A stretch of DNA of 64,000 bases from NCBI GenBank assembly GCA_900467685.1, contig UBQX01000007.1, positions 186,001-250,000 on the forward strand, written 5' to 3'. The first letter of the stretch is position 1. Each line of letters begins with the position of its first letter. Of this stretch, positions 3,658-47,275 are shown in pieces. Made by a program: the position numbers and the translations under genes. This DNA comes from Hyphomicrobiales bacterium (GTDB taxonomy: Bacteria > Pseudomonadota > Alphaproteobacteria > Rhizobiales > Rhizobiaceae). A model generated the notes under the pieces. The model was not told where the DNA came from, did no database searches, and saw only the letters and a list, made by a program, of their open reading frames with translations.

Positions 3658-3661
3658 TCCC

Positions 3662-4231: not shown

Positions 4232-4239
4232 CGAGACGC

Positions 4240-6924
4240 ATGGCAGGCAACGGCCAGGAACAGATCAAACGTCCGGATCCGGACGCGCTGCTTGCCCTTG
4301 CGGAGAAGGACCGCAGGGGCAAGCTGACGATCTTTCTGGGCGCTGCTCCCGGCGTCGGCAAGACCTACGCCATGCTCCAGCGTGCCAAGCGCCTGCGCGA
4401 TGCCGGGACCGACATCATCGTCGGGCTGGTCGAGACGCATGGCCGCAGCGAAACGGCCTCGCTTCTCGAAGGCCTCGACATCCTGCCGCGCCGCGAGATC
4501 GACTATCGCGGCCGCATCCTCGACGAATTCGACCTCGACACGGCGCTTGCCCGCCGCCCTGCCATCGTCATTGTGGACGAGCTTGCCCATTCCAACCCGG
4601 AAGGCAGCCTGCATCCGAAGCGCTATCAGGACATTGACGACCTGCTGGATGCCGGCATCAACGTCTGGACGGCGCTCAATATCCAGCATGTCGAGAGCCT
4701 CTCCGACCTCGTGACCCAGATCACCGGCGTCACGATCCGCGAGCGGGTGCCGGACAGTGTGCTCAGCCGCGCCGACGAAATGCTGCTGGTCGATCTGCCG
4801 CCGGCCGAGCTGATCGAGCGGCTGAAGGAGGGCAAGGTCTATCTACCCGAAAGCGCCAACCGTGCCGTGGACCGCTTCTTCCGCGTCGGCAATCTGACGG
4901 CCTTGCGCGAACTGGCGCTGCGCCGCACCGCCGACCGGGTGGACGACCAGATCGTCGACTATCTGAAGCAGAACGCCATCGAAGGCCCCTGGGCGAGCGG
5001 CGAGCGGCTGATCGTCTGCGTCGGCGCAGACCCACTGTCGGAGATTGTCGTGCGCGCCGCCGGGCGTCTCGCCTCGGGGCTGAATGCCCCTTTCGTCGCC
5101 GTCCATGTCGAGCGCACCGACCGCGAACGCGACGATGCAACCGCGCTGCGGCAACTTGAGAAAGTTCTGCGTCTCGCCGAGGAACTGGGCGGTGAAGTCC
5201 AGCGCATCGCTGGCAACGACTATGTCGCGGAAATCCTGAAATTCGCGGCGGCCGAACATGCAACCCAGATCGTGATCGGCTCCGGCCCTAAACGCGGCTG
5301 GGCCTTCTGGCGGCGGCAGTCGCTTCAGGATGCACTGACGGCGCGCGCGAGCGGGCTGGCGCTGCATGTCGTGACATCGGACAAGGAACCGGAAAGGCGG
5401 AAGAAGCCGCGCCCGCAGCTCGATCTCGCCTCGCTGCGCATGAATGTGGTGATCGGCGTTGGCGCCGTTCTGGCCGCGAGCCTTGTCGGCGAGACCATCG
5501 ACCACTTCATCCGACTGCCGAACCTCTCCATCATCTTCCTGATGGGCGTTCTGGTTGCCGCGATCTATGGCGGGCTGACCTCCGCGCTCCTGGCCTCAGC
5601 TCTCTCCACTTTGGCCTACAACTTTCTTTTCATCGAGCCGCGCTACACGCTGACGGTCGCCGAGCCTTATGAGGTCTTCGCGCTGATCGCCTATCTCGGA
5701 GCAGCTGTACTCACGGGCAGTCTCGCCGCGCGAAGCCGCGAACAGGCCAAGGCGGCGCGCAGCCGCGCGCTTGCCATGCAGGCGCTTTACGATTTTTCCC
5801 GCAAGCTTTCCGGTACTGCCAATGTCGAGGAAGTGCTCTGGGCTGCCGTCACGCAACTGCAATCTGGCCTCAGGAAGAACGTACTTCTGCTGCTCCCCGT
5901 CGAGGGTGACCTCAAGACGCTCGCCGCCTGGCCGCCGGATACGGAACCCGGCGTTGCCGATCTCACCGCCGCGCGCTGGGCGCATGAGAAGCGCGAACAT
6001 GCGGGCAAAGGCACCGGAACGCTGCCCAACAGCCATTTCCATTTCCGCCCGCTGATGAGCCCGCATGGCGTCGTCGGTGTCTGCGGGATCAAGCTTGTCG
6101 AGGATACGCTGAACCCCGCTGACGAGCGAATGCTGACAGCCATCCTCGACCAGACGGCCGTGGCCATCGACCGCGCCCGGCTCTCGCAGGAAAGCGTCGA
6201 TCAAGCCGCTCGCCTCGAAGGTGAGCGCTATCGCGATGCGCTGCTCTCCTCCATCTCGCATGACCTTAGAACGCCGCTCGCCACCATCACAGGCGCGGTG
6301 AGCAGCCTACGCGAATTCGGCGAGAAGATGCAGCCGGAAAGCCGCGACGATCTCCTGCAATCCATCGAACAGGAAAGCGACCGCCTCTCCCGCTTCGTCG
6401 CCAACCTCCTCGACATGAGCCGCATCGAATCCGGTGCGCTGAAATTCACCCGTGACTGGGTCGACGTCGCCGATGTCGTCCGGACCGCTGTCGAGCGCGC
6501 CCGCAAATATTTCCCCGGCCGCAGCATCGAGACGGGCTTGGCCAGCGACCTGCCGCTGATCGAAGCCGATAGCGTTCTATTGGGCCAGGTCCTGTTCAAT
6601 CTCCTCGACAATGCGGTGAAATACGGCGGGACGGAGCCGATCAACGTCTATGCTCGGCGCGACGGCGAGGCGGTGATCATCTCCGTCACCGATCTCGGCA
6701 AGGGCATTCCGCCGGAAGAGCTGGAACGCGTCTTCGAAAAGTTCTATCGACGCGGCAAGTCGGACGGACGCGCGCCTGGAACCGGGCTCGGCCTGTCCAT
6801 CGCCCGCGGCTTCATCGAAGCGATGGGTGGCACGATCAAGGCGGAAAGCCCGGCCTTGAAAAAGCGCGGAACCCGCATCACCATGAGATTTCCGGTCAAA
6901 GCCCCCGGCAGGAGCGACGCATGA
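4240..6924 (+). CDS. kdpD: KdpD, sensor histidine kinase for K+ limitation/turgor
   Basis: Membrane sensor kinase (894 aa) that controls kdp expression with KdpE. Domain order visible: N-terminal KdpD domain (residues 20-230) with Walker-type GAAPGVGKTYAML; a universal-stress-protein-like domain (about 250-375); a four-helix DUF4118 membrane block (about 400-500) starting VVIGVGAVLAASLVGE; a GAF-like region (about 515-650); HisKA with ISHDLRTPLATITGA, phospho-acceptor His near residue 674; and HATPase_c with NLLDNAVKYG and GTGLGLSIARGF. Full family length. The stop overlaps the kdpE start by 4 bases (ATGA), indicating coupled translation. Confidence 0.97.
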   Translation: MAGNGQEQIKRPDPDALLALAEKDRRGKLTIFLGAAPGVGKTYAMLQRAKRLRDAGTDIIVGLVETHGRSETASLLEGLDILPRREIDYRGRILDEFDLDTALARRPAIVIVDELAHSNPEGSLHPKRYQDIDDLLDAGINVWTALNIQHVESLSDLVTQITGVTIRERVPDSVLSRADEMLLVDLPPAELIERLKEGKVYLPESANRAVDRFFRVGNLTALRELALRRTADRVDDQIVDYLKQNAIEGPWASGERLIVCVGADPLSEIVVRAAGRLASGLNAPFVAVHVERTDRERDDATALRQLEKVLRLAEELGGEVQRIAGNDYVAEILKFAAAEHATQIVIGSGPKRGWAFWRRQSLQDALTARASGLALHVVTSDKEPERRKKPRPQLDLASLRMNVVIGVGAVLAASLVGETIDHFIRLPNLSIIFLMGVLVAAIYGGLTSALLASALSTLAYNFLFIEPRYTLTVAEPYEVFALIAYLGAAVLTGSLAARSREQAKAARSRALAMQALYDFSRKLSGTANVEEVLWAAVTQLQSGLRKNVLLLLPVEGDLKTLAAWPPDTEPGVADLTAARWAHEKREHAGKGTGTLPNSHFHFRPLMSPHGVVGVCGIKLVEDTLNPADERMLTAILDQTAVAIDRARLSQESVDQAARLEGERYRDALLSSISHDLRTPLATITGAVSSLREFGEKMQPESRDDLLQSIEQESDRLSRFVANLLDMSRIESGALKFTRDWVDVADVVRTAVERARKYFPGRSIETGLASDLPLIEADSVLLGQVLFNLLDNAVKYGGTEPINVYARRDGEAVIISVTDLGKGIPPEELERVFEKFYRRGKSDGRAPGTGLGLSIARGFIEAMGGTIKAESPALKKRGTRITMRFPVKAPGRSDA

Positions 6925-7613
6925 GCCTGGACCGCATTCTGGTCGTCGATGACGAGCCACAGATCCAGCGCTTCCTCAAGCCCGCGCTGAATGCAGCCGG
7001 CTACGACGTCGTGGAGGCCGCGACCGGCGCGGAAGCGCTGAAGGCGGTCGCCACAGCGGCACCCGATGTGGTGATCCTCGATCTCGGCTTGCCCGACATG
7101 GACGGCAAGGAGGTCGTGGCGCAATTGCGCGGCTGGTCGGACATCCCGATCATCATCCTTTCCGCTCGTGACCGCGAGAGCGAGAAGATCGCCTCGCTCG
7201 ACCTTGGCGCCGACGATTATGTCGAAAAACCATTCGGCATCGGCGAACTGACTGCCCGTATCCGCACGGCGCTGCGCCGCAAGAACAAGGAGTCAGCGGT
7301 CGCCACGCATTTCACCATCGACGGTCTGGAGATCGACACGCAGCGGCGGATCGTCTCGCGCGATGGCGCGCCGATCAAGCTGACACCGAAGGAATACGAT
7401 CTTCTGGTCCTGCTCTCCCGCCACGCGGGCCGCGTCGTCACCCACAAGATGCTGCTGACCTCCGTCTGGGGTCCGGCGCATGGCGAAGACCTGCATTATC
7501 TGCGCGTCTTCATCGGGCAGCTGCGCCAGAAGATCGAGCGGAACCCCACGGAGCCGGTGATCATCCGCACCGAACCGGGCGTGGGCTACCGCTTTGCGGA
7601 GACCACCGGCTGA
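6921..7613 (+). CDS. kdpE: KdpE, OmpR-family response regulator
   Basis: DNA-binding response regulator (230 aa) phosphorylated by KdpD and activating the kdp operon. The N-terminal receiver domain has acidic residues in VVDDEPQ, phospho-acceptor Asp54 in ILDLGLPDMDG, Ser in IILSARD and Lys in VEKPFG. The C-terminal winged helix (about residues 125-228) carries LTPKEYDLLVLL and RVFIGQLRQKIE, typical of OmpR/PhoB. It is the last gene of the kdp operon; the convergent LysR gene ends only 2 bases away, leaving no room for a dedicated terminator. Confidence 0.97.
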   Translation: MSLDRILVVDDEPQIQRFLKPALNAAGYDVVEAATGAEALKAVATAAPDVVILDLGLPDMDGKEVVAQLRGWSDIPIIILSARDRESEKIASLDLGADDYVEKPFGIGELTARIRTALRRKNKESAVATHFTIDGLEIDTQRRIVSRDGAPIKLTPKEYDLLVLLSRHAGRVVTHKMLLTSVWGPAHGEDLHYLRVFIGQLRQKIERNPTEPVIIRTEPGVGYRFAETTG

Positions 7614-7615
7614 CC

Positions 7616-8515
7616 TCAGACTGGCCGCACGCGGGTCACGTAGTTCTCGAAGAAATCCGAGAAGCGGGCGACGCGCATCGGAAGCTTCTCGTATGGCGGA
7701 TAATAGAGCGTGAGCCAGAGTTCCGGCGGCTCCCAATCGGGCAGAACCGGAACCAGATTGCCCGAGGCAAGCGCCTCCTCGACGATGAAGTGGGGGAGCA
7801 GGGCGATCCCCTCGCCGTTTTCCGCAAGTCGCGCCGAAACCTCGCCATTGTTCGTGGCCACCACCTTGCCGGCATGCACCTTCCGTATCCGCCCTGCATT
7901 CGACAGTTCCCACTCCTCCGCCAGGGCCTCTTCGTCAAAGGCTATGCAGTCGGCGTGCTTCAGATCCTCCGGCTCCTTCGGTGTGCCGTTGATCGCGAGA
8001 TAGCCCGGCGAGGCGACCAGCAGGCGCCGGACGGGGCGGATCTTGCGCCAGATTGTCGACTTGTCCTGCGGCGCGCGCGAGATGCGAATGGCGAGATCGA
8101 AGCCACCCGACATGATATCGATGAAATGGTCGGTCAGCGAAAGCGACACGGTGATGTCCGGGTTCTCGACGCGCAGGCCGGAGACGACGTCCGGCAGGAT
8201 GCGCTGCCCGAGAGACAGCGGCGCATTGACGCGAATATGCCCCGAGACCTGATCCGTCTGGGCGCGAACCTCATCGGCGACTGCCTCGAACTGCTCGAGC
8301 AGCGGCGAAATGCGGGCGGCATAGACTGCACCCGCAGAGGTCAGCGAGACCTGACGCGTCGTGCGCAGGAGGAGCTGGACGCCCAACTCCGTTTCCAGCG
8401 CGCTGACCGCACGCGTGACGGAGGGCGCGGTCATCGAAAGCTGGCGCGCAGCAGCCACGAAGCTGCGCTGGTGGGCTACCGTCAGGAAGATGCGGATCGT
8501 GTTCAAATCGCTCAT
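7616..8515 (-). CDS. LysR-family transcriptional regulator, divergent from quinone-detox pair
   Basis: Regulator of 299 aa. N-terminal winged HTH (residues 1-60) reads TIRIFLTVAHQRSFVAAARQ with SMTAPSVTRAVSALE as the recognition part; the rest is the LysR effector-binding domain (GHIRVNAPLSLG onward). The frame is open far upstream, but the HTH begins at the ATG at 8515 and the extension only runs antisense to the dioxygenase gene, so 8515 is the start. It diverges from the dioxygenase/hydrolase pair across a 126-base AT-rich gap, which makes those genes the likely target (inference). The CrgA/DhcR-type sequence suggests an aromatic or quinone ligand, but this cannot be proven here. Confidence 0.9.
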   Translation of the reverse strand: MSDLNTIRIFLTVAHQRSFVAAARQLSMTAPSVTRAVSALETELGVQLLLRTTRQVSLTSAGAVYAARISPLLEQFEAVADEVRAQTDQVSGHIRVNAPLSLGQRILPDVVSGLRVENPDITVSLSLTDHFIDIMSGGFDLAIRISRAPQDKSTIWRKIRPVRRLLVASPGYLAINGTPKEPEDLKHADCIAFDEEALAEEWELSNAGRIRKVHAGKVVATNNGEVSARLAENGEGIALLPHFIVEEALASGNLVPVLPDWEPPELWLTLYYPPYEKLPMRVARFSDFFENYVTRVRPV

Positions 8516-8641
8516 GCTGATAATTTCATATTCTGCAATAATATTGTCAATTTTATTTCTATTCACAAAGGAGCGGGTTGGGGCCATCTTCTGCCCATCG
8601 GAGGACGCGAACAGGGCGTCCCAGCAGAAAGGACCAAGGCA
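8516..8641. promoter_or_regulatory. Divergent promoter region, LysR / dioxygenase
   Basis: A 126-base interval between divergent starts. Bases 8516-8575 are strikingly AT-rich compared with the surrounding GC-rich genes and include overlapping TTCATATT, AATAATATTG and ATTTCTATTC blocks where promoters of both directions probably lie. I could not fix a single LysR T-N11-A box here with confidence. Confidence 0.5.
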
Positions 8642-9574
8642 ATGCTTACTCAGATCAAGGGATTGCACCATGTGACCTCGATGGCCGCAGATGCGCAGGT
8701 CAACAGCGATTTCTTCACCAAGACGCTGGGTCTGCGCCGCGTCAAGAAGACCGTCAACTTCGACGCTCCGGAAGTCTATCACCTCTATTACGGCGACGAA
8801 GTCGGGACCCCCGGCTCGGTCATGACCTATTTCCCCTTCCCCCACATCGCCGCCGGCAAGGCTGGCGTTGGCGAAGTTGGCGAAACCTATTTCGCCGTTC
8901 CCAAGGGTTCGCTCGGTTACTGGCGCGAGCGCCTTGGCAAGCTTGGCGTACAGGGTCTTGCCGAGACGGAAGCCTTTGGCGAAAAGCGCCTGCGCTTCGC
9001 CGGCCCCGACAACGACGGGTTCTCGCTGATCGAAGTCGATGGCGACGAGCGGAACGGCTGGCTGCAGGACGAGATCGGCGCGGCCGAAGCGATCAAGGGC
9101 TTTCACGGTGCCAGCATGCGCCTGAAGGATGCCGGTGCTACCCGCGAACTCCTCGGCTTCATGGGCTACCAGAAGGTCGACGAAAAGAACGAGTGGTCGC
9201 GCTACACCATCCCCGGCGGCAACGGTGCCGATTTCATCGATATCGAAACGCTCCCCGGCGCTGGCTTTGCCCGCCAGGGCGCCGGCTCGGTGCACCACAT
9301 CGCCTTTGCCGTCGAAGACAGGGCAGCCCAGCTGGAGGTCCGCAAGGCACTGCTCGACACCGGCTATCAGGTCACCCCGGTCATCGACCGCGACTACTTC
9401 TGGGCGATCTATTTCCGCACCCCCGGCGGCGTTCTCTTCGAGATCGCCACCAACGAGCCGGGCTTCGATCGCGACGAGGATACGGCCCATCTCGGTCAGG
9501 CGCTCAAGTTGCCGACGCGCTACGAGCCGCATCGCGAGCAGATCGAAGGCCTGCTGAAGCCGATCGTCGATTGA
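8642..9574 (+). CDS. VOC-family ring-cleaving dioxygenase (MhqO/MhqE-like)
   Basis: Protein of 310 aa with two vicinal-oxygen-chelate (glyoxalase-fold) halves. The first opens with GLHHVTSMAAD (metal-ligand His), the second has GSVHHIAFAVED (second His) and ends with VLFEIATNEPGF (carboxylate ligand), the pattern of extradiol dioxygenases of the MhqO/PcpA type that cleave hydroquinones. The longer open frame upstream is antisense to the LysR gene; ATG 8642 after GGACCAAGG was chosen. The hydrolase 61 bases downstream fits a two-step degradation, as with Bacillus mhqO and mhqD. Exact substrate is unknown. Confidence 0.88.
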   Translation: MLTQIKGLHHVTSMAADAQVNSDFFTKTLGLRRVKKTVNFDAPEVYHLYYGDEVGTPGSVMTYFPFPHIAAGKAGVGEVGETYFAVPKGSLGYWRERLGKLGVQGLAETEAFGEKRLRFAGPDNDGFSLIEVDGDERNGWLQDEIGAAEAIKGFHGASMRLKDAGATRELLGFMGYQKVDEKNEWSRYTIPGGNGADFIDIETLPGAGFARQGAGSVHHIAFAVEDRAAQLEVRKALLDTGYQVTPVIDRDYFWAIYFRTPGGVLFEIATNEPGFDRDEDTAHLGQALKLPTRYEPHREQIEGLLKPIVD

Positions 9575-9596
9575 GCCGAGTTCACCAGAAAGACAG

Positions 9597-9617
9597 CGGG
9601 ACCGCCTTGCGGTCCCG
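9597..9617 (+). terminator. Intercistronic hairpin
   Basis: Perfect 9-bp stem CGGGACCGC / GCGGTCCCG with a 3-base loop between the dioxygenase stop and the hydrolase start. It is followed by TCTGTTGG rather than a T-run, so it is more likely an mRNA-stabilising or partial attenuation hairpin than a full terminator. Confidence 0.55.
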
Positions 9618-9635
9618 TCTGTTGGAGATGACGAC

Positions 9636-10238
9636 ATGACCAGCACCTATCATGCATTCACGAAAGCGCCCGCGCCTGGCGCACCGCTGATCTTTGCCTT
9701 TCATGGCACGGGCGGCAACGAGTTCCAGTTCAACGAACTGATCGGTGAGATCAGGCCGGATGCCGGCATCGTCGCGCCGCGCGGCGATGTCAGCGAGTTC
9801 GGCGCGCTCCGCTTCTTCCGCCGCACCGGCGAAGGCGTCTACGACATGGACGACCTGAAACTGCGCACCGAACGGATGGCGGCTTTTGTCGCCGCGCAAA
9901 AGGCGGCACATCCCGGCCATCCGGTCTACGCGCTCGGCTATTCCAACGGCGCCAACATTCTCGCGTCGGTGATGTTCGAACATCCGGACCTGTTCGACAA
10001 GGCAGCGCTACTTCACCCGCTGATCCCGTGGGAACCGGAAGCAACCGAAGGCCTGAAGGACAAGCAGATCCTGATCACCGCCGGCGAACGCGACCCGATC
10101 TGCCCGCTTCCGCTCACGCAGCGACTGATTGCCTATTTCGGCAATCAGGGCAGCCGTGTGGAAACCGCCTTCCATCCCGGCGGACACGAAATCCGGCAGG
10201 GCGAACTGCAGGCAATCGCGCAGTTTTTCGCAGCCTGA
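9636..10238 (+). CDS. Alpha/beta hydrolase, carboxylesterase/phospholipase type (MhqD-like)
   Basis: Cytoplasmic serine hydrolase of 200 aa. Oxyanion-hole region FAFHGTGGNE, nucleophile Ser103 in GYSNGAN, Asp153 in GERDPICPL and His184 in HPGGHEI complete the catalytic triad. Size and motifs fit the PF02230 carboxylesterase/MhqD group. Start ATG 9636 follows TTGGAGATGACGAC. In Bacillus the homologous pair dioxygenase plus hydrolase confers resistance to hydroquinone and catechol; here the same pairing is under a LysR protein instead of MarR-type MhqR. The substrate is inferred from context only. Confidence 0.87.
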   Translation: MTSTYHAFTKAPAPGAPLIFAFHGTGGNEFQFNELIGEIRPDAGIVAPRGDVSEFGALRFFRRTGEGVYDMDDLKLRTERMAAFVAAQKAAHPGHPVYALGYSNGANILASVMFEHPDLFDKAALLHPLIPWEPEATEGLKDKQILITAGERDPICPLPLTQRLIAYFGNQGSRVETAFHPGGHEIRQGELQAIAQFFAA

Positions 10239-10475
10239 AGACGCAAGCGCGCGGCACGATAGGCCGCGTCGGCATCATCGCGAAGACGTCAGCGAAGCAA
10301 CCCCGCAGCGATCCAGACAGGACCGCCGCGGGGTGATCTGTTTAAGCATTAAACCGTTCAGCGATGACACCTCGGCTGGCGGTATCTCATAAGTTGCTCA
10401 CTATCCAACACAAAATTCGCCACCCTTATGAACACGCGTGGACATCGTTCAAAATCGAGTGCTAAAACACGATAA

Positions 10476-10489
10476 CTGACGAACATCAA
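10476..10489 (+). promoter_or_regulatory. Candidate FixK/FNR box upstream of fixL
   Basis: CTGAC-GAAC-ATCAA matches the anaerobox consensus TTGAY-N4-RTCAA at 9 of 10 defined bases and is centred about 54 bases before the fixL ATG. The surrounding 10239-10535 interval carries no gene. If real, it would let FixK feed back on fixLJ. Confidence 0.4.
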
Positions 10490-10535
10490 TTCCAGATGGG
10501 CGCTTCAGGTTCGGGTTGCATCTTGGTGGGGAAAC

Positions 10536-12047
10536 ATGCGCTCAAGGCTCGGCGACAAAGCGGTTGAGCGGTCCGGCTCCCGATGGGCATTCCTGTCGCG
10601 TCGGCAGCGCGCCTATGCCGTCGCCATTCTGGCGGCCTTTTGCGCGATCAGCATCTGTTTGGTTTTCAAGGCGCGCATGAGCGATTCGCTCGCAGCCGTC
10701 ATACTCGCCATGCCTGTCGTCGCCTCGGCCGCCATCGGCGGCTTCGGGCCTGTCCTGATCGCTGGCCTCTTGTCGCTCGCAGCTCTCGTTGCCCTCGATG
10801 ACCGGGCCGCCATGACCTTTTCGCTGGGACCGGCGCTTGCGTTTGCCCTGCTCGTCGTGGCGATCGCCCTGCTCGCTGAGGTGCTGCAGCGCACGCGCGA
10901 CGCTGGGCGGCAATCGCTCGCGGACATGACCGCGCAGGCCGCCCATCTGAAGTCCGTTCTCGACACCGCCCCGGATGCCGCCGTGGTGGCCAACCCGGAT
11001 GGCATCATCGTTTCCTTCAATGCCGCCGCCGTCCGCCAGTTCGGTTATAGCGAACAGGAAGCGATCGGCCAGAACCTGCGCATTCTGATGCCGGAGCCCT
11101 ACCGGGCCGAACATGACGGTTACATCGCCCGCTACCGCAACACCGGAGAGCGTCGCATCATCGGCATCGACCGGGTCGTCGTCGGCAAGCGCAAGGACGG
11201 CTCCACCTTCCCGATGAAACTCGCGGTTGGCGAAACGCATACCGAGGGCAAGCGCTACTTCACAGGCTTTATCCGCGACCTCACCGAGCGCGAGGAATCG
11301 GAGGCCCGCCTTCAGGCGATCCAGGGCGAGCTTGCCCGCCTTGCCCGCCTCAACGAAATGGGCGAGATGGCCTCGACGCTGGCCCACGAACTCAACCAGC
11401 CGCTTTCCGCCATCTCCAACTATGTTCACGGCTGTTCGCGACTGCTGCGCGACATGGACGACGACCTCGCCAGCCGGATGCGCGATGCGCTCGACGAGGC
11501 GGGGCGGCAATCGCTGCGCGCCGGCCAGATCATCCGCCATCTTCGCGAATTCGTCACCAAGGGCGAGACGGAAAAGAACGCCTACAATATCCGCAAGCTG
11601 ATCGAGGAGGCCGGCGCGCTGGCGCTGGTCGGCTCCCGCGAAAAGGGCGTGCGCGCCGTCTTCGACTTCGCCTCCGAAGCCGAACTGGTCATAGTGGATC
11701 ATGTGCAGATCCAGCAGGTGCTGATCAACCTGATGCGCAACGCCATCGAGGCGATGAAAGATTCCCCCACGAAGGAACTGGTCGTGCGGACGACGCGTTC
11801 GGCACCGGGAGAGATCAGCATCACGGTTGCCGATACGGGTCCCGGGATTGCGGAGGAAATTTCCGCCCAGCTCTTCAAGCCCTTCACGACGACCAAGCCT
11901 GGCGGTATGGGGATCGGGCTTTCGATCTCCAAGCGCATCGTCGAGGCCCATGGCGGGCGAATGGCGGTCATCTCCAACGAGCGCGGCGGCGCGACGTTCG
12001 AATTTACATTGCCGGAATACGAGGAAGACGCGAATGTCGAAGACTGA
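10536..12047 (+). CDS. fixL: FixL, oxygen-sensing haem PAS histidine kinase
   Basis: Inner-membrane sensor (503 aa) that is inhibited by O2 bound to haem and phosphorylates FixJ under microaerobiosis. N-terminal membrane helices span residues about 25-115. The haem PAS domain (about 140-255) has the FixL signature [13 protein letters not shown] with proximal haem ligand near His193, and [16 protein letters not shown] with the arginines that sense ligand. HisKA carries [14 protein letters not shown], phospho-acceptor near His284, and HATPase_c has [10 protein letters not shown] and [13 protein letters not shown]. Length equals S. meliloti FixL. The stop overlaps the fixJ start by 14 bases. Confidence 0.96.
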
Positions 12048-12654
12048 CTTCACGGTGCATATCGTCGATGACGAGGAAGCAGTGCGCAAATCATTGGCTT
12101 TCATGCTGACCATGAACGGTTTTGCCGTCCGCATGCACCAGTCGGCCACCGAGTTTCTCGACTTTGCACCGAACGCCCGCGATGCTGTCCTGATCACGGA
12201 CCTGCGCATGCCCGACATGAGTGGCGTTGACCTCATCCGCAAACTTGCAACGGTGAATGGAGCCATCCGCCCCGTTGTCATCACCGGCCATGGCGACGTG
12301 CCCATGGCGGTGGAAGCCATGCGTGCCGGCGCCGTTGATTTCATCGAGAAGCCCTTCGACGACACGCTGATCATCGAGGCGATCCATCGCGCGGCAGAGG
12401 GCCTGAAACCTGCGACGGACGATGGCGAAGACGCGAACACGGTGCGGGCCCGTATCGACAGCCTGAGCGAGCGCGAAAGGCAGGTTCTCTCCGCTGTCGT
12501 GGCGGGGCTGCCCAACAAGGCCATCGCGTATGATCTCGACATCAGCCCGCGCACGGTCGAGGTCCATCGCGCCAACGTCATGGCCAAGATGGCGGCAAAA
12601 AGCCTGCCGGAACTGGTGCGCATGGCGCTCGCCGCCGGCTTTCATGCTGCATGA
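12034..12654 (+). CDS. fixJ: FixJ, NarL/LuxR-type response regulator
   Basis: Response regulator (206 aa) phosphorylated by FixL; activates fixK-type promoters. Receiver domain: [11 protein letters not shown], phospho-acceptor Asp near residue 56 in [25 protein letters not shown] and IEKPFDD, all very close to classic FixJ. The LuxR-type HTH is at about 140-200 with [22 protein letters not shown] and [16 protein letters not shown]. The open frame extends upstream inside fixL; ATG 12034 overlapping the fixL end is chosen because the protein then begins with the receiver beta-1 strand. Confidence 0.96.
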
Positions 12655-12657
12655 TTT

Positions 12658-12671
12658 TTGACATATGACAA
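12658..12671 (+). promoter_or_regulatory. Candidate FixK/FNR box between fixJ and the FixT-like gene
   Basis: TTGAC-ATAT-GACAA matches the anaerobox consensus TTGAY-N4-RTCAA at 9 of 10 positions. It begins 3 bases after the fixJ stop and is centred about 80 bases before the next gene, a usual place for a Crp/Fnr activator. It suggests FixK control of the short receiver-like gene. Confidence 0.5.
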
Positions 12672-12743
12672 AGCGCATACGGAGACGTTTGAGCACAATG
12701 GCGCATTGAAGCCGGATTTTCGGCAAAATCATTGTGCCAACCC

Positions 12744-13103
12744 ATGCCCAAGTCACGCGCCATTGTCGTTATCGTGCCAGATCAGGCACTCAACAGGTCT
12801 CTCGCCTTTGCGCTTGAGGCTGACGGCTATCGCGTGTCGAGCTTTTCATCCGTTGCCTCGGCGACCAAGGCACTGCCGGATGCCCTCTGCATTATCGCCG
12901 ATGACGGCGCGCTGAAGGCGGCCGTGGCACCGAACGATCTCTCCGGCTTTGCGGGACGAACCCTGCTTCTGCGGGAGCATGGGGCCGTGCCGCGTCATGA
13001 CGCGATGACGGTCCTCACAAAGCCGCTCAGCGGCGCGGACGTGCTGGCCGCCGTCGCCCGTTTCATTCCCCCTGCAACCCTCTCCGACCCCAGCTACGTA
13101 TGA
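12744..13103 (+). CDS. Short degenerate receiver-domain protein, FixT-like candidate
   Basis: Protein of 119 aa resembling a single response-regulator receiver domain without output domain. N-terminal beta strand AIVVIVPDQ stands where VDDE would be, acidic pair D53-D54 in CIIADDGAL at the phospho-acceptor position, and Lys93-Pro94 in VLTKPLSG at the conserved K-P. The usual Ser/Thr after beta-4 is replaced (LLLREHG), so phosphotransfer is doubtful. It sits between fixJ and fixK, the place and size expected of FixT, the FixK-dependent inhibitor of FixL. Only one cysteine (C49) is present, so it cannot build the four-cysteine Fe-S site known in Caulobacter FixT. A TTG at 12732 is an alternative start. 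Function is inferred. Confidence 0.65.
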   Translation: MPKSRAIVVIVPDQALNRSLAFALEADGYRVSSFSSVASATKALPDALCIIADDGALKAAVAPNDLSGFAGRTLLLREHGAVPRHDAMTVLTKPLSGADVLAAVARFIPPATLSDPSYV

Positions 13104-13110
13104 CTACGTA
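13094..13110 (+). promoter_or_regulatory. Candidate tandem FixJ-binding site before fixK
   Basis: Two identical CTACGTA heptamers at 13094-13100 and 13104-13110, 10 bases apart (one helical turn), overlapping the end of the upstream gene and lying 84 bases before the fixK ATG. FixJ sites in rhizobial fixK promoters contain GTA(A/C)GTAG-like boxes; the second copy continues as ACGTAGT. This is a visual match only. Confidence 0.45.
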
Positions 13111-13193
13111 GTGGTACAACCGAATTTCGCAACTCGATCCGTTCCCGCATAGTCACCTCACAGTCAAACGCCCAGTCAGACAGAGGTGACACC

Positions 13194-13835
13194 ATGCAGG
13201 CTCTCGCACACACTCAAGCCTTTCAGCCGGTTCCTGCCTCGCATATCCATGCTGCGAGCATCCTGAACGGCCCCGGCGCGCTCACGACCTATTCGGCGGA
13301 CGAGGAAATCTACGGCCAGGGCGAACGCGCTGGTACTCTCTATGAAGTCCGCTACGGCGCGGTTCGCCTCTATCGGCTTCTCTCAGATGGCCGCCGCCAG
13401 GTCGTGGCCTTCCACTTTGCCGGCGAGACCTTCGGTTTCGAGGCGGAAGGCGTGCATAGCTTCTTCGCCGAAGCCATTGTGGAGACGGGCCTGCGCAAGG
13501 TCGTGACCCACGCCAACAGCAACATCAATCCGGAAATGCTGGCACTGGCGCTGCGCGGCATGATCCGCGCCCAGCAGCATCTTCTCGTCGTCGGCCGGCA
13601 ATGCGCCACCGAAAAGCTCGGCGCCTTCCTGCTCGATCTCGCCGAACGCCAGGGCGATCCGGATCGCATCGACCTTCCGATGACGCGCCTCGATATCGGC
13701 GACTATCTCGGCATGACGATCGAAACCGTCTCACGCAGCATTTCCAAGCTGAAGGCAGCCGGCATTCTCAAGCTGCACAGCCTGCGCTCGGTCGAAATCC
13801 TTAAAGTCGAAAAGCTCCGCCAGATCTGCAACTGA
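13194..13835 (+). CDS. fixK: FixK, Crp/Fnr-family microaerobic activator
   Basis: Transcription factor of 213 aa with a Crp-type cyclic-nucleotide fold (about residues 30-140) and HTH (about 160-205) reading DIGDYLGMTIETVSRSISKLK; the E-x-x-S-R pattern is that of FNR/FixK proteins reading TTGAT-N4-ATCAA. It has no N-terminal cysteine cluster, only an isolated internal Cys, so it is the oxygen-insensitive FixK type, with oxygen sensed upstream by FixL. Start ATG follows AGAGGTGACACC. Candidate FixJ sites lie just upstream. Its classic targets (cytochrome cbb3, denitrification) are not in the window. Confidence 0.9.
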   Translation: MQALAHTQAFQPVPASHIHAASILNGPGALTTYSADEEIYGQGERAGTLYEVRYGAVRLYRLLSDGRRQVVAFHFAGETFGFEAEGVHSFFAEAIVETGLRKVVTHANSNINPEMLALALRGMIRAQQHLLVVGRQCATEKLGAFLLDLAERQGDPDRIDLPMTRLDIGDYLGMTIETVSRSISKLKAAGILKLHSLRSVEILKVEKLRQICN

Positions 13836-42090: not shown

Positions 42091-42747
42091 TCAGACCGGC
42101 TCGAACGCCAGCACGACGATGCGAGGCGTCAGAGAATAGACCAGCCTCACGCGTCTACCGGCCCTGGTCCTCCCTTCGCTGCGCGTGAAATCGATAGCCA
42201 CATCCTCGAAGCCGAGGATGACCTGGTCACGCGGAAACACCGCCTTGTAGACCGCTTCCTTGGCGACAAAGAGAAGACGGCTGGCGAGCCTTTCTTCAAC
42301 GCCATCAACGACATCGGCCGGCATCTTCACGATCGCCGCCACGTCTTGGGCCAAAGGTTCGGAAGGTTCGATGTCAATACCCAGGGATTTGAAGGACGCT
42401 GCGGACGCCATGGCAGCAATGGCAAACGCATCGTCATGCGCCATCGATCCCACCACGCCGAACGGCCAGACCGGCGCACCGCTCGCCGCCTTGAGAAGTG
42501 GCGCATCAGCAAGCCCCGCCTGCCTGAGCAATCCGCGCGCCACATGCCGCGCAGCGCCGCTGGCATCGCGCATGCGATCCACTTTGGAGGTCACGGAGGC
42601 CGCCTCTTCCGGCAGCAACAGCGCCTGATCCCCATCACGGATGGCGCGGCAGGCGACATGGATGCCAGAGGGCCTCATTACACCCAGAACATCGTCGAGG
42701 GCGCGCTCATCCGCCGTACTGTGCTGCGGCTTATTAAGCCCTGTCAT
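42091..42747 (-). CDS. 4'-phosphopantetheinyl transferase (EntD/Sfp type)
   Basis: Enzyme of 218 aa that moves 4'-phosphopantetheine from CoA to a carrier-protein serine. Motifs: WPFGVVGSMAHDD (substrate CoA region), SLGIDIEP with Mg-binding Asp and Glu, and LLFVAKEAVYKAVFP. It resembles the EntD subgroup. It is the last gene of the operon with the Pls-like synthetase, whose carrier domain is its obvious client, and overlaps the GNAT gene by 4 bases. Confidence 0.92.
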   Translation of the reverse strand: MTGLNKPQHSTADERALDDVLGVMRPSGIHVACRAIRDGDQALLLPEEAASVTSKVDRMRDASGAARHVARGLLRQAGLADAPLLKAASGAPVWPFGVVGSMAHDDAFAIAAMASAASFKSLGIDIEPSEPLAQDVAAIVKMPADVVDGVEERLASRLLFVAKEAVYKAVFPRDQVILGFEDVAIDFTRSEGRTRAGRRVRLVYSLTPRIVVLAFEPV

Positions 42748-43217
42748 GGACGGGCTGCACGTGGATCAAGCGCGGCGATCATCTCGCCGTCTTCGTCCAG
42801 CCCTTCTTCGAAAAATCCCGCCTTGGCATAGAGGCTTCGCGCGGCTTCGTTTTCCGGCTCGTAGCAGATGGAAATGCGGCTCACATCGCCGAGCCCCGCG
42901 ATCTCGGCCATGAAGGCCCGTAAGCCCGCCCGGCCATAGCCCCGCCCCTGCTGCGCGGCATCGATCATGAAACGATAGAGCCGGACATCGCCCCGGTCGG
43001 AAGCGTCATACATGAGGAAGCCGACGGGCGTGTCATCGGCCATGATGGCGCGGGGCGACGCGCCGGGATCATGATCCGCCTCGGCGAGCGAGGCGGCATT
43101 GTCGGCGACGAAATGCGCCTGCGCCGCCTCAACCTTCAGCGCCGTGATCGCGGCGCGGGTTTGCGCCGTGACCGGTTCCAGATGCACGGTCGGCCGGTAA
43201 TCATCCGCGCCCGCCAT
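42744..43217 (-). CDS. GNAT-family N-acetyltransferase
   Basis: Protein of 157 aa with GNAT fold motifs: PVGFLMYD (beta-4), LYRFMIDAAQQGRGYGRAGLRAFM (acetyl-CoA pyrophosphate loop) and CYEPENEAARSLYAKAGFFEEG. It resembles diamine/spermine acetyltransferases, which fits a partner of a basic-amino-acid synthetase, for example by acetylating an amine substrate or product (inference). Stands between the Pls-like gene (5 bases) and the phosphopantetheinyl transferase (4-base overlap). Confidence 0.88.
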   Translation of the reverse strand: MAGADDYRPTVHLEPVTAQTRAAITALKVEAAQAHFVADNAASLAEADHDPGASPRAIMADDTPVGFLMYDASDRGDVRLYRFMIDAAQQGRGYGRAGLRAFMAEIAGLGDVSRISICYEPENEAARSLYAKAGFFEEGLDEDGEMIAALDPRAARP

Positions 43218-43222
43218 GACGA

Positions 43223-46200
43223 TCAGCCCTTGGTGCGCGCAGCACCCTCCCGGATCGGCGTGATCACGCTATGAAGCTTGGCCGGATTGCCGCGCCAGAT
43301 CGTGTTCGGCTCCAGCGCCTCGCCCTTCATGACGAAGCTGTCCGTGTCGGCAATCGAGCCTTCTCCCATGACGACGCCATAATGCACGAAGGCAGCCGGG
43401 CCGAGCGTGCAGCCCTTGCCGATGCGGATGTAATCCGACTTGAAAGCACCTTCTTCAAGCGAGTGCGCCTGGATGACGCAGCCCTCGTTCAGCGTCGCAT
43501 CGTCACCGATCTCGACCAGCGAGCGTTCGGTCAGGTTGCTGCCGCCGTCATAGACGCGCTTGCCGATCTTGACACCCAGCGCCCGCAGGATCAGCGGACG
43601 GAACGGGGTTCCGGCGAAGAGATACATGATCGGCGAGTCCGAAAGCTTCCAGTGGCGCTCATGCCGCCAGAACCGCTCCTCGTAGATCGTCGTCGTCATC
43701 GGTTTCAGCTTGCCGAAGCCGAGGCTGGCGCGCTCGATCAGGATATACATGATGATCTCGAACGTCGTCACGATCACGGTGGCGATGAAGAGACCCGTGC
43801 CACCCCATTCGGTATAGTAGTTCAACGCGCGGTCCCAGACCGCAAGCGCGATGAACAGGGCGAGGAATTGGGCACCCAGGAAGAGAATGCCCGTCCAGAG
43901 ATTGTACCGGTTCTTGCGCGGCAGGCGGGCACGGCGATCCTCTTCGGTCACCCCCTGGATAAGGTCGAGGTCGCGCTTGACCATGCGCGGGATTTCGAAC
44001 GGCGGCGAGCCGAGGAGACCGATGTTCTCGCGAACCGGTCCCTCGATCGGCACCATCACCTTCGTGCCGAGGAGAACGTTGTTCCCGGTCTTGCCATCCG
44101 GCGGATAGTAGATGTTGTTGCCGAAGTAGTTGTCATCGCCGATCCGCGTCGGCGAGAGACTGAAGGACGAGGCCGACTTGTGCACATTGATCATGTAGAG
44201 GCCATCCGACACCATGGTCCGGCTGCCGAGATCGCACATGAAGGGGTTGTCGTGCTGGGTGTTGGTTCCGAAATTGGAACCGGTCTGGACAACGGTGTTA
44301 AGGTTCCAGCCGATCGCGCGAATGTAATGCACGATGGCCGAACTGTCGCCGAACAGCAGGTTCATGAGCCGCGAGTTGCTGACCGTTTCAGTGACCGACT
44401 GCATGAAATAATGCACGCCGTATAGCGAATAGGTCTTGCCCGGCTCAAGGAAGTGGCGGAAGAGGCGCGGCACGCCGATGGCCAGCAGAAGCGCGAAAGC
44501 GAAGCCGCCAAGTTCGACGACCAAGGCGCCGATGGCCACAAGGCCGATCGTTTCCTGATAGCCGTCGCCGACATTTTCCCAGTAGGTCTGGATGATCAGA
44601 GGCAGCGGCGTGAGAACAGTGAACAGGAAGATCAGCTGCACGGCTTCGTAGATGATGCGGCGGGCACGGGACAGCGTCACGCCCCGAACCTTCGAATAGT
44701 CCGCATTGGACTTCACCGCAGGCGAACCATGCCAGTGCTCGCCATCCGGAATGACCTGGCCGCGCTGCAGCGATGAGCCATGGCCAAGCTGCGAACCGTC
44801 GCCCATCCTGGTGTCGATATCGAGAGCGCTGCCGACGCCGACGAAGGCGTCGCGACCGATGGTGATGCGGCCCGTATGGATATAACCCGCCTCGGCCCGG
44901 AAGCCGGGGATCAGCGTCTCCTTGCGCAGGATCGTGTTCTCGCCGATCGAGATAAGGTCGGTGCAGACGGGAACCGATTTGCTTTCGATGGCCGTGCTCG
45001 AGCCGAGCTTTGCGCCGAGAAGCTTCAGATAGAGGCTGTAGAGGGGGCTGCCGCGGAAGAGCACGACGGGCGCCGTCCGGATCAGCGTCTTGACGACCCA
45101 GAAGCGATAATAGCGCCAGCTCCAGATCGGGAAGATTTCTTCCTTCCAACGCCCGACAAGGATCCACTTGGCCGCGACCGAGAAGCCGGTCATGGCAAAG
45201 AAGACCGCGCCTGAGAGGATAACGCAGCGGATATAGAGTGCCAGCGGCTCGTCGAGCTTTTCATAGAGCCACATGAGGCCGTAGTTGAACAGCCAGAGGC
45301 CGACATAGGTGTAGACGCCGTAGAAAGCGAGCTGCGCCGCGCCCGTGGCCCAATAGGCGAAGTTCGACGCACGGTGGGTCAGCACGATTTCATCGGCCAG
45401 CGGCTCGGGGGCATCTTCGCTGCCCAGATGCTTGATGAGCTGGCCAATGCTGGGATTGGCGTAGATGTCGCGCATCGACGTCGCAGCCCATTCCTTGCGG
45501 GTGCGGACACGGGAGCAGAAATGCGCCAGAAGCAGCGAGTTGGCGCCCAGATCGTCGAAGAAATTGTCCTCGACATAGACCTCGTCAGCCTTCAAGACGT
45601 CGGCCAGCGCGGCAGCGAGAAACCGCTCATCTTCGGTGCTAGGCAGGAACTTCGAGCGGTTGTCCGAAACCCGCGACAGGCTTGGCTTCGGCAGACGGCG
45701 CGTGTCGATCTTGTCGGACACCGTCATCGGCATCGCGTCGAGCTGTTCCAGGAACTTCGGAACCATGTAGTCGGGCAGCCGGCGCTTCAGCTCGCGCGTC
45801 AGCGTTAGGCGGTCAAGCTCGCCCACGCCGGATTTCAAGGCGTAGTAGCCGACGAGTTCGACGCGGCCCGGCTGGACCTCGAATGTCGTGACGGCAGCCT
45901 GCGCGATCTGAGGCTGGTCGAGAAGGATCGCCTCGATTTCGCCGGTCTCGATGCGGTAGCCGCGGATCTTGACCTGCGTGTCGATGCGGCCGTGATACTC
46001 CACATCGCCATCCGCATTGATCACACAGAGGTCGCCGGTGCGATAAATGCGGTGCGAGGGATTGTTCGGCAGGTCGAGGAAGTCGTTGATGAACTTCTCT
46101 TCGTTCAACTCCGGCCGGTTGAGATAACCGACCGCAACGCCGATCCCGGCCAGCCCGAGTTCCCCCATTTCGCCGACGGGCATCAATTCCGGCTTTTCCG

Positions 46201-47275
46201 GATTGAGGATGACGGCCGAATAGGTCGGTAGCGGCTTGCCGATCGTGACCGGCTTGTCGGGCGTCAGCACGGCCATGGTCGCGGTGACGGTCGCTTCCGT
46301 CGGGCCATAGGTGTTGAGGATCTTGCGCTTCTCGGTCGCCCAGCGTGCAACGAGGTTCTGCGGACAGGCTTCGCCACCGACGAGGATGAGGCGCAGGCTC
46401 GGCACGTCGCTTTCCATGGATGACAGCAGCGTCGGGCTGCAGGCCATGCAGGTGATCTCGTGCTCGCGCAGGAATTCGGCGAGTTCTTCGCCAACCAGCG
46501 TCATCTGCCCGGCCGCCGGAACGATGGTCGCGCCGGCTGCGAAAGGAACCCAGATTTCCTCCGAGGAGAAGTCAAAGGCGATCGTCATGCCCTGATAGAC
46601 GCGGTCGGACGGCTTATAGCCATAGGAATGGGCGGCAACGCGCACGAAGTTGCAGATGCTCTGGTGGCGGATCACCACGCCCTTGGGCTTGCCGGTCGTG
46701 CCGGAGGTGTAGAGGATGTAGCAGGTGTCATCCGTCGAGGTCGCGACCTCGGAGGCCGAAAGCGGCGATGCGTCCTTGGCATCGACCTCTTCACCGGCGC
46801 GGTCGATCAGCAGGGTGTCGATCGAGAGCTGGCTGGCCTTTTCGAGATAGCCTTCGATGGTCAGAACCAGGCGGATGCCGGCATCCTCGACGATCAGCGC
46901 CATGCGCTCCGGCGGGAAGGCGGTCGCCAGCGGCACGAAGGCGGCACCCGCCTTCATGACGGCGAGAACGGCGATGTAGGTTTCGGCCGAGCGATCGAGC
47001 AACAGCGCCACACGGTCGCCGGCGCGCACGCCCTTTTCGATCAGCACGCGGGCCAACTGGTTGGCGCGGCGGTCCATTTCGGCATAGGTCCAGGTGCGCC
47101 CTGCGGAAATGACGGCAGGATGAGAAGCCGCACTTTCAGCCTTCTGCGAGAAGACGCGGTCCAGACGCTCGCCGGGGCGACCCTCGTCCGCGAAATTGTC
47201 ACCGAGAAGAACCTGGCGGTCTCCCAGCCACCCACGCTCGTTTTTTTCAGCGTTTGATCGGGTTGCCGACGTCAT
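43223..47275 (-). CDS. Pls/PosA-family single-module NRPS with membrane and beta-helix tail
   Basis: Giant membrane enzyme of 1350 aa from ATG 47275 (GGAG 8 bases upstream; ATG 47281 possible). Adenylation domain (about 35-535): YILYTSGTTGKPKGVV, FDFSSEEIW, NTYGPTEATV, YRTGDL, catalytic Lys522. Carrier domain (about 545-615) with phosphopantetheine Ser580 in DDLGANSLLL. The rest alternates hydrophobic helices with three left-handed beta-helix (hexapeptide) acyltransferase-like domains (around 760-850, 1040-1120 and 1240-1350). This is the architecture of epsilon-polylysine synthetase Pls and PosA. It may condense a basic amino acid onto an amine or polymerise it; the product is unknown. No thioesterase is present. 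Confidence 0.9.
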   Translation of the reverse strand: MTSATRSNAEKNERGWLGDRQVLLGDNFADEGRPGERLDRVFSQKAESAASHPAVISAGRTWTYAEMDRRANQLARVLIEKGVRAGDRVALLLDRSAETYIAVLAVMKAGAAFVPLATAFPPERMALIVEDAGIRLVLTIEGYLEKASQLSIDTLLIDRAGEEVDAKDASPLSASEVATSTDDTCYILYTSGTTGKPKGVVIRHQSICNFVRVAAHSYGYKPSDRVYQGMTIAFDFSSEEIWVPFAAGATIVPAAGQMTLVGEELAEFLREHEITCMACSPTLLSSMESDVPSLRLILVGGEACPQNLVARWATEKRKILNTYGPTEATVTATMAVLTPDKPVTIGKPLPTYSAVILNPEKPELMPVGEMGELGLAGIGVAVGYLNRPELNEEKFINDFLDLPNNPSHRIYRTGDLCVINADGDVEYHGRIDTQVKIRGYRIETGEIEAILLDQPQIAQAAVTTFEVQPGRVELVGYYALKSGVGELDRLTLTRELKRRLPDYMVPKFLEQLDAMPMTVSDKIDTRRLPKPSLSRVSDNRSKFLPSTEDERFLAAALADVLKADEVYVEDNFFDDLGANSLLLAHFCSRVRTRKEWAATSMRDIYANPSIGQLIKHLGSEDAPEPLADEIVLTHRASNFAYWATGAAQLAFYGVYTYVGLWLFNYGLMWLYEKLDEPLALYIRCVILSGAVFFAMTGFSVAAKWILVGRWKEEIFPIWSWRYYRFWVVKTLIRTAPVVLFRGSPLYSLYLKLLGAKLGSSTAIESKSVPVCTDLISIGENTILRKETLIPGFRAEAGYIHTGRITIGRDAFVGVGSALDIDTRMGDGSQLGHGSSLQRGQVIPDGEHWHGSPAVKSNADYSKVRGVTLSRARRIIYEAVQLIFLFTVLTPLPLIIQTYWENVGDGYQETIGLVAIGALVVELGGFAFALLLAIGVPRLFRHFLEPGKTYSLYGVHYFMQSVTETVSNSRLMNLLFGDSSAIVHYIRAIGWNLNTVVQTGSNFGTNTQHDNPFMCDLGSRTMVSDGLYMINVHKSASSFSLSPTRIGDDNYFGNNIYYPPDGKTGNNVLLGTKVMVPIEGPVRENIGLLGSPPFEIPRMVKRDLDLIQGVTEEDRRARLPRKNRYNLWTGILFLGAQFLALFIALAVWDRALNYYTEWGGTGLFIATVIVTTFEIIMYILIERASLGFGKLKPMTTTIYEERFWRHERHWKLSDSPIMYLFAGTPFRPLILRALGVKIGKRVYDGGSNLTERSLVEIGDDATLNEGCVIQAHSLEEGAFKSDYIRIGKGCTLGPAAFVHYGVVMGEGSIADTDSFVMKGEALEPNTIWRGNPAKLHSVITPIREGAARTKG

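Follow-up and report, generated by a model that had tools for sequence, protein, structure and literature searches.

The window analysed here (a 64,000-nucleotide stretch of contig UBQX01000007.1, from a relative of Rhizobium) carries, on the minus strand at positions 42091-47275, a three-gene operon encoding a Pls/PosA-family synthetase, followed by a GNAT N-acetyltransferase and an Sfp-type 4'-phosphopantetheinyl transferase (PPTase). The operon is probably a self-contained cationic poly(amino acid) synthetase system of the short-side-chain branch, with diaminobutyrate (DAB) as the favoured monomer and a chain linked through the side chains. Its genes, domains, active-site residues, conservation and clade were established directly; the features are as follows:

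43223..47275, minus strand: Pls/PosA-family synthetase with A domain, carrier domain and membrane-bound terminal domain, 1350 aa, ATG at 47275 (TIGR02353)
45686..47164, minus strand: adenylation (A) domain, synthetase residues 38-530 (PF00501 and PF13193)
Synthetase residues 43-385, minus strand: AMP-binding (PF00501, Pfam)
Synthetase residues 446-522, minus strand: AMP-binding_C (PF13193, Pfam)
45425..45622, minus strand: carrier domain, synthetase residues 552-617 (PF00550, PP-binding)
43280..45346, minus strand: terminal polymerisation domain, synthetase residues 644-1332, predicted to repeat a helix pair and a beta-helix three times (TIGR02353 and structural model)
42744..43217, minus strand: GNAT N-acetyltransferase, 157 aa (PF00583)
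42091..42747, minus strand: Sfp-type PPTase, 218 aa (PF17837 and PF01648)

The synthetase scores 805.5 bits against TIGR02353 (curated cut-off 423.1), matching profile positions 2-695 of 695, and 428 bits against the AA-adenyl profile TIGR01733 (cut-off 317.4). Its four Pfam matches include one A domain and one carrier (PCP) domain, as in the Pls/PosA family, and no condensation (C) or thioesterase (TE) family. Judged by its sequence, the protein is a member of this family, as the preliminary description had proposed, and the domain inventory given there (one A, one carrier, neither C nor TE) was also confirmed. The phosphopantetheine serine is S580 in the motif LGANSLLL, conserved in 87/87 rows, and the synthetase is the sole long NRPS-like protein detected in the genome. 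The GNAT gene lies 5 bases beyond the synthetase stop and overlaps the PPTase gene by 4 bases, a layout described previously and in agreement with both coordinates and Pfam matches. As the GC content of the operon (62.5%) is native to the window (62.4%), recent import was rejected. Three genes flanking the PPTase side are syntenic in three related loci (L009-L011), while a transporter gene on the other side is syntenic in L009 and L011 only. Among the three operon genes there is no peptidase gene comparable to the pldII-type partner of Pls.

The pocket code of the A domain is DFEALGTVTK (D235, F236, E239, A278, L298, G300, T322, V330, T331 and K522); as a control on the extraction, the PosA row yielded exactly the published DMEHNGTVSK. 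Positions 1-3 read DFE in 87/87 rows, giving the Asp at position 1 and Glu at position 3 expected of the family. In PosA, Asp217 and Glu221 bind the two amines of the substrate (PMC10522769). The residue at position 2 is proposed to set side-chain length, being Ala in Pls and Met in PosA, and Phe is reported at this position in the synthetases of poly-diaminopropionate (PDAP) and poly-diaminobutyrate (PDAB) (PMC10522769). The window code, with Phe at position 2, fits a diamino acid shorter than lysine or ornithine. L-2,4-diaminobutyrate is the most likely candidate, falling just short of an even chance; 2,3-diaminopropionate (DAP) is a less likely one, and otherwise the substrate would be another short diamino acid. 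The code is not decisive by itself because synthetases of the DFEY type share most of its letters (9/10 letters in L230 and 8/10 in L229), yet SbnA is absent from both confirmed DFEY genomes (G428 and G502). The DFEY loci were rejected as a key to the code: SbnA is lacking, and matches among the scanned neighbours were confined to a TetR regulator and a GH35 galactosidase, with the remaining neighbours being ORFs chosen by length and without a match.

In a tree of C-terminal domains, a clade of 35 rows (SH-aLRT 100) unites the window type with synthetases linked to dat or to SbnA, and the DAES, DMEH/PosA, DLED, DGES and DFEY rows lie outside it. In an A-domain tree built without the code columns, DFEA joins DFEC/P with a support of 99. 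The dat-linked rows are not monophyletic in the C-terminal tree, which was flagged for long branches and skewed composition: L076, L083 and L114 join the split SbnA type (98), and the others join DFEA with a support of just 82-90. The window synthetase shows two features expected of gamma-poly-diaminobutyrate synthetases, namely Phe at position 2 and membership in the deep clade of dat-linked enzymes, but lacks a third, a dat gene over cut-off at the locus or elsewhere in the genome.

Five AlphaFold2 models were made of the terminal domain, the best with a mean pLDDT of 79.9 and a pTM of 0.84 (the others had pLDDT values of 72.3 to 52.5). The best model contains three rounds of long helices, each followed by a strand-rich coil. 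Foldseek matched it to acetyltransferases such as maltose O-acetyltransferase (best E-value: 2.1e-05), but over approximately 110-290 columns, so that the matches back the fold of about one unit and not of all three; to this extent the acyltransferase-like beta-helix units of the preliminary description, three of which appear in the model, were recovered. A Kyte-Doolittle scan (19-residue window, threshold 1.3) found hydrophobic stretches at 674-709, 873-899, 907-943, 1124-1151 and 1157-1186, accounting for five of the six helices expected in the membrane; the remaining one, which opens the first pair, scores under the threshold. Residues H1271, D1024 and E1206 are conserved in 26/26 rows of the other clade and, within the window's own clade (35 rows), in >95% of rows that are ungapped at those positions.

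The PPTase matches both 4PPT_N (PF17837) and ACPS (PF01648) over cut-off, as expected for an Sfp-type enzyme, and its nearest solved relatives are PptT. The genome has two PF01648 matches, the operon PPTase and a 143-aa frame that, judged by its length, is taken as AcpS. For the GNAT (model pLDDT 90.4), the nearest solved chains by both sequence and fold are the spermine/spermidine acetyltransferases 9dsb and 2fl4. With 33% identity and an RMSD of 10.6 in Foldseek, this is a resemblance only; by analogy, it suggests N-acetylation of a cationic product. A GNAT of the window type is missing beside 15/77 synthetases with the same code, although at four of these 15 loci a lower-scoring GNAT match (42-54 bits) lies downstream of the PPTase gene, and both of the two that were scanned were confirmed as GNATs.

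Conservation of the operon, a check put forward in the preliminary description, was examined in 77 close relatives with the DFEA pocket type: the complete set of three genes is present in 62, and another 12 carry the synthetase and PPTase genes. Because gene order and strand are kept in 62/77 relatives (protein identity 65-96%), the arrangement is not due to chance. The branch occurs in Mesorhizobium, Rhizobium, Shinella and Brucella/Ochrobactrum records. When 1262 ORFs from 80 loci were clustered, the only clusters crossing genera were those of the operon's three genes, a set of ORFs antisense to the PPTase gene and one cluster of six Mesorhizobium and two Shinella loci with scattered positions; further clusters were restricted to Brucella/Ochrobactrum records. 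This clustering is weak, as length-based ORF choice displaced the true genes in many loci. In a first survey of the order, selection by length made 8/29 rows antisense ORFs and another two lacked a usable code; a sample was redone by similarity. TIGR02353 is over cut-off in 48/297 sampled genomes of the window's order and in 73/296 of an actinomycete class, and the family is reported across many phyla, rhizobia included (PMC10522769), which overturns the earlier view that such enzymes are known mainly from Streptomyces. No study of the window operon was found among the matches listed in the open-licence literature (supplementary tables excluded).

Searches of the window genome for dat, SbnA and EutE recognized no known DAB or DAP supply gene. 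The best TIGR00709 (dat) score was 258 bits against a cut-off of 401.6, from a protein that is a GABA transaminase over that family's own cut-off; the best SbnA score was 217 against 349.95, the top two SbnA-like matches being cysteine synthases; and EutE was not found. Among 37 other genomes of the window type, dat was over cut-off in 11, EutE in 25 and SbnA in none (G323 was short by 0.25 bits, at 349.7), and we rejected SbnA as a route of DAP supply. Neither dat nor EutE was found in 8/38 genomes (the window's own included), where approximately nine would be expected under independence. Ectoine breakdown was likewise rejected as a source of DAB, since EutE is present in 25/38 operon-type genomes but not in the window genome and the tie to dat is no more than chance. 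No dat-strength match occurs within up to 8 kb on either side of the synthetase at the 77 DFEA loci. A class-III aminotransferase gene upstream of the R. lusitanum operon (L037) was considered as a linked DAB supply and rejected, scoring 229.7 of the 401.6 bits required for dat. Similar genes occur in L036 and L056, with one in L060; the dat score is that of L037 only. A figure legend in PMC8117764 lists dat beside pldA as part of the gene context of known synthetases, and a dat-like gene lies directly upstream on the same strand in 8/9 DFEC/P loci examined (the exception is L077). Three of these genes (L076, L083 and L114) are over the TIGR00709 cut-off; the other five, at 366-535 bits, match only the Skermanella gene.

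We infer the substrate, linkage, chain length, export and role of the GNAT as follows. The PPTase would attach the phosphopantetheine arm to S580, and the A domain would activate a short basic alpha-amino acid and load it onto the carrier. The membrane beta-helix domain would then link units iteratively via the side-chain amine, with neither a C nor a TE domain, and the resulting short isopeptide chain would be released at or across the membrane. Finally, the GNAT may acetylate amines left free in the product or monomer, which would serve for capping, charge modification or self-protection. A basic polymer, also proposed in the preliminary description, thus stands as the best guess at the product. 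We would only tentatively, and with some doubt, go further and predict that a distinct alphaproteobacterial branch of the family makes an undescribed cationic isopeptide (such as N-acetylated oligo-diaminobutyrate) whose monomer comes from an unknown route or from plant or soil uptake, and whose dedicated PPTase and polymer-specific acetyltransferase form a three-gene unit with the synthetase.

It is improbable that the enzyme instead makes epsilon-polylysine or delta-polyornithine in the ordinary way, from a diamino acid that is universally present and for which a supply gene would be unnecessary. Lysine and ornithine are always available in cells, the genome yielded no known DAB or DAP supply gene, and the window pocket has D, E, G, T, V and K in common with PosA. 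However, position 2 is not the Ala of Pls or the Met of PosA (PMC10522769), the C-terminal domain falls in the other deep clade, and DAES and DMEH codes are absent among the 77 DFEA relatives. The pocket code and C-terminal tree together make either product less likely.

Beta-helix acyltransferases usually move a single acyl group, and the Foldseek matches are O- and N-acetyltransferases. Together with a partner GNAT that resembles polyamine acetyltransferases and an operon devoid of a peptidase, this would suit a pathway in which no polymer is made and one amino acid, to be acetylated later by the GNAT, is moved at the membrane to an acceptor (an amine, a polyamine or a lipid). Such a pathway is nonetheless unlikely: characterised enzymes of the same architecture produce homopolymers (PMC10522769; PMC4668381), and D1024, E1206 and H1271 are common to the window type and the rows with PosA and DAES codes. 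We also think there is little chance that the GNAT makes the monomer or a precursor (for example, acting on diaminobutyrate like EctA) and does not modify the product. Although it adjoins the synthetase in 62/77 loci, where no recurrent diamino-acid biosynthesis gene was seen, its closest solved relatives act on polyamines, and its type is missing at 15/77 same-code loci, four of which have the weaker downstream match.

Antifungal or cell-penetrating activity is known for cationic isopeptides (PMC10522769, PMC9606270), whose role in nature is described as unclear (PMC9606270). With a PPTase of its own, the present branch could be produced intact in E. coli and assayed with no helper genes added, and its code, acetyltransferase and missing monomer pathway offer a route to studying how such enzymes select the length of the side chain and how a producing cell copes with a polycation.

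PosA of Acinetobacter baumannii shares with the window synthetase the A-PCP-terminal architecture and the D and E pocket residues for two amines. It differs in pocket code (DMEHNGTVSK versus DFEALGTVTK), in its terminal domain (approximately 24% identical, with 22-25% across three DMEH-code rows, and in the other clade) and in being a single-gene operon (PMC10522769); the comparison with TIGR02353 and PosA suggested earlier thus upheld family membership but not a PosA-type code or clade. Pls of Streptomyces albulus is alike in layout and size, and it has the membrane helices and three acyltransferase-like units in tandem (PMC8117764, PMC10522769) that the model predicts for the window protein. 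The parallel drawn previously with epsilon-polylysine synthetase holds for this layout but not beyond it: the lysine-type rows (assigned from Ala at position 2, in a set without a named Pls) have the code DAESIGTVVK or DAESIGTVIK, and the window terminal domain is 20-23% identical to theirs and belongs to a different deep clade, with a pocket fitting a shorter diamino acid. The DLED-code synthetases (such as that of Rhizobium sp. CCGE531) are also rhizobial, and theirs is the rhizobial code printed in PMC10522769, but their pocket and clade are unlike those of the window type; an annotated PPTase gene adjoins the synthetase in L115, with weak PPTase matches in L247 and L251. The beta-poly-diaminopropionate synthetase of S. 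albulus PD-1 has Phe at position 2 (PMC10522769), as does the window protein, and the SbnA-linked split synthetases share its C-terminal clade (43-45% identity); in contrast to that type, the window genome and 37 others of its type have no SbnA over cut-off. The DFEC/P rows, which represent the gamma-poly-diaminobutyrate group in a set without pldA/pddA themselves, have Phe at position 2, the same deep clade in both trees and A domains 48-54% identical to that of the window. A dat-like gene adjoins nearly all of them, whereas the window synthetase has no linked dat and is instead accompanied by GNAT and PPTase genes. The window operon belongs to an already known enzyme type, in a branch that has its own partner genes.

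The three genes of the operon are arranged as follows:

43223-47275, minus strand: synthetase, 1350 aa, with its ATG start at 47275
42744-43217, minus strand: GNAT acetyltransferase, 157 aa, beginning five bases past the synthetase stop
42091-42747, minus strand: Sfp-type phosphopantetheinyl transferase (PPTase), 218 aa, with a four-base overlap with the GNAT end

The ends of these open reading frames bear out the three-gene layout, with 5-base spacing and 4-base overlap, given in the preliminary description. No sigma-70-like promoter was found for the operon using a simple scan of low informativeness. Following Pfam and NCBIfam analysis, the synthetase was found to consist of single A and carrier domains followed by a TIGR02353 terminal domain; comparison with the last of these, which had been suggested as a check, gave a full-length match of 805.5 bits (cut-off 423.1). 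The carrier serine (S580) is kept in all 87 aligned rows. Based on its sequence features and, in part, on its membrane topology, the synthetase is a member of the Pls/PosA family with a predicted product. The earlier assignment to a Pls/PosA type thus stands at the level of the family, while the tested features of a polylysine or polyornithine synthetase were not found in this protein. The control genome named as Corynebacterium glutamicum also has a TIGR02353 match above the cut-off.

The terminal domain was modelled with AlphaFold2 (17 sequences, five models). The best model (mean pLDDT 79.9, pTM 0.84; remaining models lower, down to pLDDT 52.5) has three repeats, in each of which long helices lead into a strand-rich coil, and this three-fold arrangement is also modelled for PosA in PMC10522769. 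Its Foldseek matches are acetyltransferases resembling maltose O-acetyltransferase (best E-value: 2.1e-05); with query TM-scores of at most 0.18, each match covers roughly one unit. Of the six membrane helices, all but the first, which remains below threshold, are supported by hydropathy.

A species-genome collection was searched with the window synthetase, giving 90 relatives, by design close ones only; 80 loci were retained, many of them from Mesorhizobium, and the counts are therefore not independent. Their pocket codes are DFEALGTVTK (69), DFEAMGTVTK (8) and DFECLSVVTK (3). Conservation of the three-gene operon, also proposed for checking, was confirmed in 62 of the 77 DFEA loci, which have the whole set if one PPTase truncated where the contig stops (L035), one PPTase fragment of 119 aa some 270 bases on (L058) and one GNAT frame of 100 aa (L065) are included. 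A further 12 loci have synthetase and PPTase, and neither partner is present in three (L030, L057 and L068). Based on longest-ORF ends, the GNAT/PPTase 4-base overlap recurs in 30 of the 62 three-gene loci. Four of the 12 two-gene loci (L032, L037, L056 and L060; Pfam-checked in two) have a GNAT-like gene of another type on the downstream side of the PPTase, and Phyllobacterium sp. 628 has the GNAT with no PPTase annotated beside it. Mesorhizobium comanense carries two paralogous synthetases (L026 and L030), with neither GNAT nor PPTase found beside the second. With every pocket type pooled, TIGR02353 is above cut-off in 48 of 297 sampled genomes of the order; in the genus, five of six genomes, including that of the window, pass the family cut-off.

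Pocket codes were taken from alignments, using code positions that follow GrsA numbering. The code of the window synthetase is DFEALGTVTK. As controls for code extraction, an Acinetobacter row gave DMEHNGTVSK, exactly the code that PMC10522769 prints for PosA, and DLEDIGTVVK, obtained from a Rhizobium row, agrees with the rhizobial code of the same paper. DFEALGTVTK is absent from the codes in the consulted sections of that paper, which ties position 2 to side-chain length: Phe in synthetases of 2,3-diaminopropionate (DAP) and 2,4-diaminobutyrate (DAB) polymers, Met in PosA and Ala in Pls. One Acinetobacter record with a PosA gene (L116, NZ_CP104448.1, 4.09 Mb) is labelled as a plasmid, but its size suggests that it is probably a chromosome or has been fused to one.

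Codes were compared with neighbouring genes in 40 further regions and four plasmid-collection loci. In eight of nine DFEC/DFEP loci, a gene similar to dat (DAB transaminase) is immediately upstream on the same strand; those of L076, L083 and L114 pass the TIGR00709 cut-off, and those of L237, L239, L240, L241 and L249 were matched to a Skermanella gene only (366-535 bits). The ninth, Pseudonocardia MAG locus L077, has tandem family synthetases (2321-7117 and 8947-13764), both DFECLSVVTK, and a dat-like gene was not found there. In a split version of the family (eight loci, of which seven belong to the actinomycete class sample and L238 to the same order as the window), the carrier and terminal domain are fused and the A protein is separate, adjacent and of code DIWQSTADDK in seven; none was found for L215. 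SbnA, a DAP supply enzyme, is above cut-off within four of these loci or at their margin (L213, L218, L221 and L224); L222, L223 and L238 have weaker cysteine-synthase-like matches, and L215 has no such match. No dat-like or cysteine-synthase-like gene was seen beside the synthetase at the four DFEA loci of this set; their partners are GNAT and PPTase (L235, L236), PPTase (L248) or GNAT (L113).

A tree of 61 C-terminal domains, flagged by the program for long branches and compositional skew, places the window protein together with the dat-linked and split types in a clade of 35 rows (SH-aLRT 100); opposite it are the DAES, DMEH/PosA, DLED, DGES and DFEY rows. The dat-linked rows are scattered inside the clade: three join the split type (98) and the remainder are near DFEA (82-90) or unresolved (L241). 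In a tree of 53 A domains with the ten code columns removed, DFEA is a single clade (99) and shares a larger group of 27 rows with DFEC/P (99), DFEY being next (97). Both halves of the protein thus point to a short-diamino-acid branch, with no decision between DAB and DAP. The DFEY synthetases (L229:6844-10971 and L230:6982-11127) look mosaic, as their A domains (47% identity to the window protein) group with the window type and their terminal domains (22-23% identity) are on the opposite side of the C-terminal tree. H1271, D1024 and E1206 are present in 26/26 rows of the other C-terminal clade and in over 95% of rows with a letter there in the window protein's own clade, which makes them candidates for a catalytic or binding role.

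No supply gene for such a monomer was found in this genome by the routes searched. No DAB transaminase is above cut-off (best 258 vs 401.6 bits, a GABA transaminase above its own cut-off), SbnA was not found (the two best matches are cysteine synthases) and neither was EutE, of the ectoine-breakdown route to DAB. Among 37 other DFEA-type genomes, dat is above cut-off in 11, EutE in 25 and SbnA in none (0.25 bits short in G323). Neither dat nor EutE is found in eight of 38 genomes, this one included; approximately nine would be expected if the two were independent. The monomer could come from promiscuous transamination, from an as yet unrecognised enzyme or by uptake, or the substrate could be another short diamino acid.

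PF01648 occurs at two places in the genome, the operon PPTase and a 143-aa frame taken from its length as AcpS, and PF00550 occurs at five, the synthetase and open frames of 83, 104, 144 and 409 aa. The PPTase is thus probably a dedicated one. DLED synthetases of rhizobia and the same order can also adjoin a PPTase-like gene (annotated in L115, synthetase 7917-12586; weak matches in L247 and L251), and so this pairing may have arisen more than once. The first sequence matches of the GNAT are the spermine/spermidine acetyltransferases 9dsb and 2fl4 (E-value: 2.5e-16), as are its first fold matches, although the RMSD there is 10.6 and AAC(6')-Ib, among further GNATs, ranks close behind. E46, D50, D141, D143 and E145 are invariant across 10 aligned GNATs.

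No description of a DFEA branch with GNAT and PPTase partners was found among the open-licence papers listed by the literature searches. The architecture and product class are already known from PMC10522769, PMC4668381 and PMC8117764, and the synthetase is likely a relative of the polydiaminobutyrate synthetases.
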